Of a stretch of 64,000 bases of DNA, positions 31,177 through 34,227 are shown one piece after another (position 1 is the stretch's first letter; each line of letters starts with the position of its first letter). This stretch comes from an uncultured Acidobacteriota bacterium. Lineage in GTDB: Bacteria > Acidobacteriota > Vicinamibacteria > Fen-336. The stretch is taken from NCBI GenBank assembly GCA_902826455.1, contig CADEEV010000002.1:1-64000 (forward strand). The letters run 5' to 3'. The position numbers were made by a program, and so were the translations under genes. The notes under the pieces are model-generated. The model had not been told where the DNA came from and did not search any database. It saw only the letters and a list, made by a program, of their open reading frames with translations.

Positions 31177-31253
31177 GGGGTGGTAGTTCAGCTGGTTAGA
31201 ACGCCGGCCTGTCACGTCGGAGGTCGCGGGTTCGAGTCCCGTCCACCCCGCCA
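31177..31253 (+). tRNA. tRNA-Asp (anticodon GTC)
   Basis: A 77-base cloverleaf with acceptor GGGGTGG/CCACCCC, the TAGTTCAGCTGGTTAGAA D-arm shared with known tRNA-Asp, and anticodon loop CTGTCAC (GTC). The T-arm is GCGGGTTCGAGTCCCGT. The 3' GCCA is encoded. One G-T pair occurs in the anticodon stem. It follows tRNA-Val by 40 bases and probably shares its transcript. Its 3' end is repeated 82 bases downstream. Confidence 0.97.
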
Positions 31254-31341
31254 ATTTTCATCAACCTCGAAATCGTCGGTGTGGTCGCGACTCCGCGACC
31301 TCGCTGACGCTCGGCGCCGAGCCGAACCCCCGCCAATTTTC
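31246..31341 (+). repeat. Direct repeat of the tRNA-Asp 3' end (att-like)
   Basis: CCCCGCCAATTTTC occurs at 31246-31259, covering the last eight bases of tRNA-Asp, and again at 31328-31341. Similarity extends to ATCAACC versus TCAACC just after. A copied tRNA 3' end is the usual scar of site-specific integration. The copies enclose only 68 bases, so this may be a residual or tandem attachment site rather than the two ends of a whole element. Confidence 0.6.
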
Positions 31342-31512
31342 TCAACCAGTCGGCGTTTGCAAGTCGCGACTTCAGTGATGCCTGGGCGCCGCATCGCATT
31401 GCCTGACGACTATTGAGCCTCGCTTGACCGTACGTCCCGCGTGGCATGTGCCAGAAGCCAACCTCCCCGACGGCTATGGCGACCCCTTGCGCCTCAGCGC
31501 GTGTACGGAAGG
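31254..31512. other. Non-coding spacer with palindromes after tRNA-Asp
   Basis: No gene is supported here. It holds three perfect symmetric sequences: hairpin GGTCGCG-ACTC-CGCGACC (31283-31300), palindrome GCTCGGCGCCGAGC (31309-31322) and palindrome AAGTCGCGACTT (31361-31372). The nonamer GTCGCGACT appears at 31284-31292 and 31363-31371. The first hairpin could end tRNA transcription, although it has no T-tract. Confidence 0.5.
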
Positions 31513-33924
31513 TCAGTTGGCCGGAATCGCTGGCGGCTGAACCTCTGAGACGGCGCTCTCACGCGCACGCTTGGCGAGGCGCTCCTCGTATTTGAGCGCC
31601 GCAACGCGATCCCGGAATTCCGCAAAGTGATCGATTGGTTGCGTGAGGTTCTCATCAAGGTTGAAATCACGTCGTAGTTTCTCGGTCGCAAGGTGTAGCT
31701 CGTCGCCCGCCTCCGAGTTCTCAAGCGACGCTTGTACCTCTTCGATAAGCAAGCGTCCGCGTTCTCGCGTCGTGGTCGTCTGGTAGTCAGCCAGGAACCC
31801 CGCCACGGTCCGGTTGAGTCGGTTGCTGAGGCGGCGGTCCTCTTCACGCTGGTGAGCCTTCCGAAGCATCTTCGACAGCGCCGCTAGGAGCTGGCCAACG
31901 TTCTGCTCGGTATCGGTCCAGCCGTCTGGTGGAATCTTCGCGGTACGGGACGCAACGAGGGCGCCGACCACTTCTTTCGCGAAGCCAACCTTCTCTATGT
32001 GGGCATCTGGGCCAAGCTGCTCCGCAAAGGCACTCTTGAGAGCATCGAATAGCGATCCCGAGTTCGATGTCAGCTTGCCGGCGATGTGCTCTCCGGTGAA
32101 GAGTTCTACTTTCTCGCGCGCAACATCGCACACCTTCACCGCGTAGCTCCGCGCCGCCGCCAGCGCCAACGGCAACGAGACTAGGTCCTCGAGTTCCTTC
32201 ACGACCACGCCTTCGACTATGGATAGCCTGGCAACCTTCGCCCATTCGCCGATCTGAAGGACAAAGTCGGAGGGCAACACTTCCTTGTTGCGTGCGCCAC
32301 CTCGCGCCAGGGCTTTGGCCGCGTCGGTCCCAGCACTATCACTGTCGAGCAGGGCCACGCAGGGAGGGCGAACCACATCTCTGCCGCGAGCCAGGTAGAC
32401 CAGATAGGGCAGGCTAGATGCAGACCCTGCCGGAACAATCGTAACGTTGTTGAGGTCGAGCACCTCCAGCTTCGCCGCTTTCCGACTGTGAAGCAGGTGG
32501 GCACTCATTCCTGCCAGTAGCACCTGGTCGGCAAGGCCTTCAACGAAAAGGTTGGATCCTCCGATAAAGGAAGTCTCTGCTACGAAGGCACCAAGCGACG
32601 ATCGCAGCGGCTCATAGTGATTTCGTGCGACGTCCTTGACCACCCGAGTGCCTTCGTCGGTGACGCCCTTGTCTAGCACCCGGATCCGGTCCCCAGAGTT
32701 GCGATTGATCAAGAACGGAGAGTGGGTGACGTACAGGATCTGATCCCGGCGCTCCTTATCCTCTGGCTGTGCGAATTCCTCGAGGATGCGTAGCAGATCT
32801 TGTTGTCCTTGGCTAGAGAGGTAGGCATCGGGTTCGTCCATCAGCAGGATTTCCGGTCTGCCAGAGGTCTGCGGCTCGTGCGCGAGGAGTTGCACGTGGT
32901 AGCTGAGGAAGAACTTGAGTCCGCCGCTTCGCTCTGCAAAGGAATAGTCCGTACCTGTTCGATCGCGAATCGTGAATACGAGTTCGTACTCGCGGGGCGA
33001 AACCGTTAGGCGAAATTCTCGATCCTGTGCCCACCAGCGTGGAAAATTGAGGTGTGTCGCGAGAGACGAGTTGATCTTCTGAATGATGCCCTGGACATAG
33101 CCTTCGCGTTCGTCGGCTATGGCATCTGCGAGATCCTTGAAAGTAGTCGGATCAATCTTTGCAACCCGAAACAACAATGCTCGACCCAGCTCGTACTGCC
33201 GACTGTCACTAGCCTTGGCTGTCTGGACCGAGCTGTCCCCCAACAGGCCGAACAGAGTCGGGGCGGCCTTCGTAAAATCCTCCAGGTTCGGCCACGACTT
33301 CCCGAGCATGCCTTCCACGACCGCGCGACGAGAACGCCGAGAACCGAGTGGGCGTCGGGTGCCTGAGGCTAACTCGTGAAGCGGAATGCTGGCAGGAAGG
33401 GGCACATTCGCGTCAAGGCGAAAGACGCTTGGAAGGACAGCGCTGAGGTCGCTAGCCTTGGGGCTGACTGGCTTGGGTTCAGTCTGATTCGTGGGGTAGA
33501 GGAGTGGAGCCTTGCCGCTAGCCCGGAAGATATGGAAACGATCGCCAATGGCGAGATCAAGGGCCAGGTGTTTCTTGGCGAGCGCGACATCGTCACTGTT
33601 CAAAACCTCAAACTCGCCCCCGAAATCTGGGGACCTGCGCTTTCCCTGTTCGACTGAAAAGAAATGCGAGTAGCGGCAGAAGTCACTGCGATCGATACCC
33701 TCCCCCGTGATCAGCTTCTCGATCGCATCCAGTAGGTGACTCTTGCCAGATTCATTGGCGCCGACGATGGTTGTGATCGACGGGTCAACGTCCATGCGCA
33801 CATATGGGTACCAAGTTCCGTCGACAAGTTCCCAAGGGTCGGGCCGGGATCCCCGAACAAACTTCCGCTCGTAGTCGTAGTTGAACGACTTATAGAACCT
33901 GACATAGACCCTAGTGAGCTGCAT
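31513..33924 (-). CDS. OLD-family ATPase/TOPRIM nuclease
   Basis: A protein of about 803 residues. The N-terminal ATPase has Walker A GANESGKS at residues 55-62, an ABC-like signature (ERSGGLKFFLSYH), Walker B EILLMDEPDAYLSSQGQQDL and the switch histidine in YVTHSPFLI. A TOPRIM domain follows (LFVEGLADQVLL near 461, ALLDSDSAGTDAAKA near 526), and the C-terminal ~200 residues are helical. This is the OLD architecture: ATP-regulated nucleases that often defend against phage. No UvrD-like GajB gene is adjacent, so it looks like a stand-alone class 1 type, though longer than P2 Old. ATG 33924 has GAGG five bases upstream; ATG 33942 is the alternative. Base composition (one line counted at 60% GC) is lower than the neighbours, which suggests transfer. 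Confidence 0.85.
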   Translation of the reverse strand: MQLTRVYVRFYKSFNYDYERKFVRGSRPDPWELVDGTWYPYVRMDVDPSITTIVGANESGKSHLLDAIEKLITGEGIDRSDFCRYSHFFSVEQGKRRSPDFGGEFEVLNSDDVALAKKHLALDLAIGDRFHIFRASGKAPLLYPTNQTEPKPVSPKASDLSAVLPSVFRLDANVPLPASIPLHELASGTRRPLGSRRSRRAVVEGMLGKSWPNLEDFTKAAPTLFGLLGDSSVQTAKASDSRQYELGRALLFRVAKIDPTTFKDLADAIADEREGYVQGIIQKINSSLATHLNFPRWWAQDREFRLTVSPREYELVFTIRDRTGTDYSFAERSGGLKFFLSYHVQLLAHEPQTSGRPEILLMDEPDAYLSSQGQQDLLRILEEFAQPEDKERRDQILYVTHSPFLINRNSGDRIRVLDKGVTDEGTRVVKDVARNHYEPLRSSLGAFVAETSFIGGSNLFVEGLADQVLLAGMSAHLLHSRKAAKLEVLDLNNVTIVPAGSASSLPYLVYLARGRDVVRPPCVALLDSDSAGTDAAKALARGGARNKEVLPSDFVLQIGEWAKVARLSIVEGVVVKELEDLVSLPLALAAARSYAVKVCDVAREKVELFTGEHIAGKLTSNSGSLFDALKSAFAEQLGPDAHIEKVGFAKEVVGALVASRTAKIPPDGWTDTEQNVGQLLAALSKMLRKAHQREEDRRLSNRLNRTVAGFLADYQTTTTRERGRLLIEEVQASLENSEAGDELHLATEKLRRDFNLDENLTQPIDHFAEFRDRVAALKYEERLAKRARESAVSEVQPPAIPAN

Positions 33925-33942
33925 CTCTCCCTCAACGCGCAT

Positions 33943-34227
33943 GCTGGAGGTTTCAAGGGAGCCGCGCTTACTCCAATGAAACCGACGGTGGTATGCGCTT
34001 TACGTAGGATCCTATTACGGTTCTAGGCTACCCAGCGCGACCAGGCGAGATCCTTCATAGGTACCCATGTCCGCAAGCGGCACTGAACCGGGGCACTATC
34101 TCGGGCGGTGCGAGCGGTCGAAACGATCCGCTGGATCCAACGCCTCTCGCCAGTAGACTTCCGCGGGTCGCGCCGCTTGTTGGGAGAAACTAGTTCGCCG
34201 ATGGCGACAGCGTTGCCGGGCCAGGTC
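33943..34227. other. Island-edge spacer without a supported gene
   Basis: About 285 bases between the OLD gene and the LamG-like gene. The composition is mixed, with lower GC near 33,960-34,030. A 72-codon frame on the minus strand (34023-34241) overlaps the end of the LamG-like gene and shows no recognisable motif, so it is not called. No third copy of the tRNA-Asp end is visible here. Confidence 0.4.

Follow-up and report, generated by a model that had tools for sequence, protein, structure and literature searches.

A long stand-alone OLD-family gene in a low-GC island behind tRNA-Asp

Composition and contents of the island

The window analysed here, a stretch of 64,000 nucleotides, contains a tRNA-Val(TAC) gene (31062..31136, plus strand) and a tRNA-Asp(GTC) gene (31177..31253, plus strand), both called by ARAGORN. 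The order pcnB, tRNA-Val, tRNA-Asp is kept in relatives, so that tRNA-Val forms part of a conserved, syntenic left flank. Behind tRNA-Asp the composition changes: a GC scan of the window gave 56–62% from about 31.25 to 34.2 kb, compared to 68–70% before. A two-breakpoint fit was best with limits at 31250..34195 (log-likelihood gain 55); the start of this island, to which no strand is assigned, is uncertain between 30965 and 31625 and its end between 34015 and 34565. Over these 2.9 kb the GC content is 59%, and the base-corrected tetranucleotide profile deviates more strongly than anywhere else in the 64-kb window (z about 5). The only long intact gene in the island, on the minus strand, has a GC3 of 0.67, compared to 0.88–0.96 in eight sampled neighbours. 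An initial annotation, made from the sequence, had described a lower-GC island after tRNA-Asp and had proposed GC and tetranucleotide profiles as a check; the GC drop, the breakpoint fit, the GC3 value and the tetranucleotide profile all agree with that description. It had also reported the lack of an integrase, and none was recognised in the island. Scans of the region for promoters and terminators gave nothing better than shuffled sequences.

The right neighbour of the island (34228..35592, minus strand), which has a weak match to 3-keto-disaccharide hydrolases, is of host composition and ends at the GC boundary. Its homologues, found in 2 of 13 family genomes, are only 33–34% identical and lie on other contigs, and no right-flank synteny for this gene was found in the family genomes. 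Further to the right lies an arfB-like gene (54605..55042, minus strand). The distance from tRNA-Asp to this gene is 23.4 kb here, 1.8 kb in G007 and 7.5 kb in G012, and because it differs between genomes we regard the interval, with the arfB-like gene as its right end, as a variable region.

A repeat search identified two 14-nt copies of the tRNA tail, CCCCGCCAATTTTC, on the plus strand, one at the end of tRNA-Asp itself (31246..31259) and one at 31328..31341, the latter lying roughly where the foreign sequence begins on the left. The copies are 82 bp apart, with 68 bp between them, and both lie to the left of the long gene. The 13-mer CCCGCCAATTTTC has exact matches at only these two places in the 5.26-Mb genome, which argues that the tail duplication is not due to chance. 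With one mismatch allowed, two further places are found in the assembly, and the reversed pattern, used as a control at the same tolerance, gives 0 matches. No tail copy clear of chance was seen at the right edge of the island or up to 55 kb. The repetition of the tRNA 3' end, pointed out in the initial annotation, is therefore real, but it fails as a mark of the insertion: with both copies on the left, the repeat does not bracket the gene, and the two copies are not the two ends of an element. Between them lies a strong hairpin (31274..31309, plus strand; folding z −3.9 for 31254–31345). Since related sequence follows tRNA-Asp at the same place in three relatives (G006, G011 and G013), we read this piece as native, and the hairpin is probably tRNA-Asp's own downstream hairpin or terminator. 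The gene is not surrounded by an att pair that would reveal its route of insertion. The order tRNA, hairpin, tail copy, island matches no simple integration scheme.

The long gene and known OLD classes

The gene in the island (31513..33924, minus strand) encodes a protein of 803 residues that consists of an AAA ATPase, a TOPRIM domain and a predicted helical C-terminal extension. The open reading frame spans 31513–33942; homologues begin at an internal Met (33924), which was therefore taken as the likely start. Pfam AAA_15 and AAA_21 match above their cutoffs. The PADLOC models that match are GajA, Old, AriA and Mad3, together with a fused AriAB model, and several of the GajA and Old models extend into the nuclease half. 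OLD-like_TOPRIM matches the C-terminal half in all nine aligned family members, with a best E-value of 1.5e-5. Taken by itself, the window protein gives an E-value of 0.0046 and 17.9 bits, under the Pfam curated cutoff of 23.2 bits, so its TOPRIM assignment draws on the family matches and the motifs.

The protein has the ABC-type ATPase head of the OLD family, with Walker A (GANESGKSH, 55–63), Walker B (LLMDEPD, 360–366) and H-loop (THSPF, 400–404). In the nine-member alignment, G55, G60, K61 and S62 of Walker A, D363 and E364 of Walker B, and H401 are invariant, as are E462, D466, D527, D529, E579, D580 and K645 on the TOPRIM side; position 577, a glutamate in the window protein, is acidic in all members when read by eye. 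The C-terminal half thus contains the glutamate, the DxD motif and the metal-B acidic pair of an OLD TOPRIM domain, and it could be aligned with the TOPRIM domain of a second OLD protein from a relative (G003, below). By motif and spacing, the putative ligands are E462, D527 and D529 for metal A and D466, E577 and E579 for metal B, with K645 as the candidate basic residue. These data support the earlier identification of an OLD-type ATPase/TOPRIM nuclease. The suggestion that the element is degraded finds no support in the gene, which is full length and whose expected catalytic motifs are conserved in nine homologues.

Class 1 OLD proteins (P2 Old, Thermus scotoductus OLD [6P74], Vibrio cholerae OLD and E. 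coli YbjD/OldB) share with the window protein a stand-alone gene, an N-terminal ABC-type ATPase and a C-terminal TOPRIM domain with E, DxD, acidic-x-E and a basic residue. They are also rare and patchy in occurrence, as here, and P2 Old is carried by a phage. Likewise, no helicase or reverse transcriptase partner was recognised in the window or among the homologue neighbours scanned or annotated. However, Class 1 proteins have 528–586 residues and lack the helical C-terminal extension; P2 Old has 586, so the initial annotation was right to call the window protein the longer. Single-sequence similarity to 6P74 is barely significant.

The spacing of active-site residues provides another comparison. 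In T. scotoductus OLD (TsOLD) the ligands are E377, D431 and D433 for metal A and D381, S478 and E480 for metal B, with R487 as the basic residue (PMC7049728); in the Class 2 protein BpOLD they are E400, D455 and D457, then E404, T506 and E508, with K562 (PMC6755086). The first acidic spacing of the window protein (E-x3-D) is 4, identical to TsOLD and BpOLD, the two metal-B positions of its acidic-x-E pair are also spaced as in both, and the distance from DxD to the metal-B glutamate is 50, versus 47 and 51. From the metal-B glutamate to the basic residue there are about 66 residues, compared with 54 in BpOLD and 7 in TsOLD and P2 Old. A low-confidence model predicts these 66 residues, between E579 and K645, to be helical, and thus, under our motif and spacing assignment, the window protein differs from Class 1, in which no helical domain separates the metal-B pair from the basic residue. 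Helices in this position, between the acidic-x-E pair and the lysine (E508 to K562), are a feature of Class 2 (BpOLD and GajA of Gabija), whose PADLOC GajA models match the window protein. A further helical tail of about 130 residues is predicted at the C-terminus. AlphaFold2 models built from three input sequences were poor (mean pLDDT 49 for the whole protein and 66 for the C-terminal part), too weak to confirm the fold or to place individual ligands, and a Foldseek search of the PDB with this low-confidence C-terminal model returned nothing significant.

Unlike Class 2 proteins, the window protein has a longer C-terminus and no UvrD-like GajB at its side: none was found beside the gene in the window or in the homologue contexts scanned, where neither a UvrD-like helicase nor a reverse transcriptase was recognised among the selected neighbouring open reading frames. 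The lack of a GajB partner, stated in the initial annotation, extends to these scanned contexts of the homologues. Based on sequence comparisons, the protein appears to be Class 1 by context and Class 2-like by active-site spacing, with an added helical tail, and to represent an undescribed long OLD subfamily that is rare and patchy. A wider proposal, which we hold tentatively and at somewhat less than even odds, is that proteins of about 780–900 residues form a further OLD class, one that would be stand-alone, would have a Class 2-like helical domain at the nuclease site and a C-terminal helical module in place of GajB, and would have been spread by plasmids, phages and integrative elements over at least four phyla.

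tRNA-Asp in relatives and the distribution of the gene

In relatives, a 47–50 nt 3' part of tRNA-Asp is duplicated around inserted genes. G005 has three 3'-part copies behind the tRNA, two of 47–50 nt at 100% identity and one of 58 nt at 81%, and between the two perfect copies lie genes for a TOTE-type primase-helicase and a DUF433 protein; no integrase was recognised between the genes of this segment. The array occupies positions 2381–17966 of locus L024 (G005:C91:170000-189999), and the tRNA-Asp ahead of it is intact. In G003 (L025, G003:C23:1-6000, positions 2–2949), a tyrosine integrase gene lies directly behind tRNA-Asp, and next to it comes an OLD gene unlike that of the window, of Class 1 type, which is clearly close to TsOLD (E 4e-52 to 6P74) and is truncated where the contig ends. 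G010, which belongs to the same genus as G003, has an integrase piece of 97% identity at its tRNA-Asp, and on another of its contigs a tRNA-Asp tail lies near a Gp49/HTH toxin-antitoxin-like pair.

The integrase and OLD gene of G003, the TOTE gene between tails in G005 and the integrase of G010 lead us to regard tRNA-Asp as a hotspot in the family. Comparison of these loci indicates that it is an integration site with defence-type cargo, reached by OLD nucleases of two subfamilies. Relatives thus resemble tRNA-targeted integrative elements that carry defence genes, whereas the window island has no recognised integrase and no tail copy on its right, and none of the conserved insertion ends of G003, G005 and G010 was found in the window. 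The earlier idea of defence cargo at a tRNA integration site is best supported by the tRNA-Asp of relatives, with their OLD and TOTE genes, even though no att sites bound the window copy.

The long OLD gene occurs in 1 of 193 genomes of the class, none of the others being from the same genus, and in 1 of 14 of the family (E < 1e-30; this genome counted). At a stricter limit (1e-60), it was found in 2 of 396 genomes of its own phylum, and relatives in 3/396 and 3/292 genomes of the phyla of Actinospica and Okeania, the latter two counts each including the genome used as centre; all counts come from single representative genomes, and the difference in E-value limits applies between class and phyla. 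The nearest relative found, from Actinospica durhamensis, is 66% identical, compared to 47% for the one in the same phylum (G889), and these two homologues fall in separate, highly supported parts of the tree. Further relatives are encoded on Deinococcus and Rhodococcus plasmids. None was found in viral contigs, with either the single protein or the nine-member alignment as query, and a search of a phage collection gave one weak partial match.

Homologues have mobile or defence-type neighbours. The Deinococcus plasmid gene adjoins a type I restriction cluster, and a tyrosine recombinase is encoded about 3 kb from it. The Rhodococcus genes are on mobilizable plasmids, in the vicinity of genes for a TIR-domain protein and a Fic/VbhA pair. 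Tyrosine recombinases are also found near the G361 and G780 homologues. The G541 homologue adjoins a KAP NTPase and an Eco57I-type methylase, and that of G889 is near terminase large subunit and replication initiator matches, followed by a KAP NTPase. The G889 gene (L051, 8812–11220) has a GC3 of 0.24; its neighbours, some of which match phage terminase or replication families, mostly range from 0.5 to 0.63. By composition and context, it looks like a recently gained prophage cargo gene.

The distribution in the class (1/193), the actinobacterial nearest relative and the position of the same-phylum relative beside phage genes together argue that the window gene is horizontally acquired. Conservation and synteny across the lineage with core-like composition, which the initial annotation had named as evidence to the contrary, are not what we see: the gene is confined to that single class genome and its composition is deviant.

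Interpretation and alternatives

The reading we prefer, at a probability of roughly 0.7, is that a complete, horizontally acquired, stand-alone OLD ATPase-nuclease gene has been inserted in the variable region behind tRNA-Asp, the family's landing site for defence genes. Most likely the gene was imported recently and belongs to a known kind of anti-virus gene, of which it represents a long form not described before. We infer the anti-phage function by guilt by association. By analogy with other OLD proteins, the protein would dimerise through its ATPase heads and would be held inhibited until a phage-linked cue appeared, such as a DNA end, a lost repair complex or a nucleotide change. Once released, it might use two-metal chemistry to cut either the DNA of the phage or tRNA of the host and so halt infection. 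According to a review, OLD responds to inhibition of RecBCD and cuts tRNA, and Gabija responds to RecBCD inhibition and DNA ends (PMC12904381); the review also refers to tRNA cleavage by P2 Old and nicking by Vibrio OLD.

The stretch could instead be a nearly or fully intact single-gene mobile element, integrated in the tRNA-Asp 3' end and mobilised in trans. Such a history would fit the insertions that come with an integrase at this tRNA in G003 and G010, and also the G005 segment, flanked by tRNA tails and with no integrase recognised between its genes. We nonetheless think it unlikely, since no copy of the tail was found to the right of the island, the repeat pair on the left surrounds not the gene but a hairpin with relatives' counterparts, and the ends of the three relatives' insertions were not found here; the lack of a right att copy also speaks against the term mobilisable in the initial annotation. 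A cellular role for a horizontally acquired OLD protein, for example in DNA repair or the cell cycle, seems about equally improbable. Other members of the family show that an OLD protein may serve a different role or no visible one: archaeal Cran1, also stand-alone, may not be a defence protein in normal life (PMC12796447), and knockout of E. coli ybjD left phage susceptibility unchanged (PMC13261556). Against this, a core cellular gene is unlike what is seen here: a very patchy distribution, and homologues that lie on plasmids, near integrases and phage genes, and beside defence genes.

Two other explanations appear very unlikely. AriA ranks among the top PADLOC matches and the fused AriAB model matches too, as might be expected of a fused PARIS (AriA–AriB) system, and the ATPase domains of AriA (PARIS, Class 4 OLD) and Mad3 do match the window protein. 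Yet the AriA matches are confined to the ATPase half, and the C-terminus matches OLD-like_TOPRIM in 9/9 members. The window gene encodes one protein with an OLD-type TOPRIM domain, and the scans list no DUF4435 match of the sort that an AriB-type TOPRIM partner or fusion would give. Equally remote is a native gene of odd composition or a contaminant of the assembly, which comprises 108 contigs and in which the island differs in composition from its flanks. The gene is internal to a contig of 256 kb, where its two flanks consist of the conserved pcnB, rhomboid, tRNA-Val and tRNA-Asp genes and of host-like genes, respectively, and the other 192 class genomes lack it.

Among OLD proteins, the stand-alone nucleases are understood least, and few of them have been challenged with phage. 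A subfamily of long proteins that retain their catalytic residues and have no recognised partner would make it possible to ask if GajB is replaced by the helical domain and the C-terminal tail. In addition, tRNA-Asp defines a hotspot for defence genes in a lineage of high GC content, a single locus at which OLD genes of two distinct types occur along with a TOTE gene.

In G541 (L048, 5824–7839) and G889 (L051, 12120–14726), two hosts that are distant from each other, the long OLD gene has a KAP-family NTPase gene as its neighbour, in different orientations; this neighbour could be a partner or a chance association. In Actinospica durhamensis (L022, 1–9839), the OLD homologue follows a putative arsenic-resistance cluster with ArsR-, aquaporin-, ArsC- and TrxB-like genes, as judged by eye.
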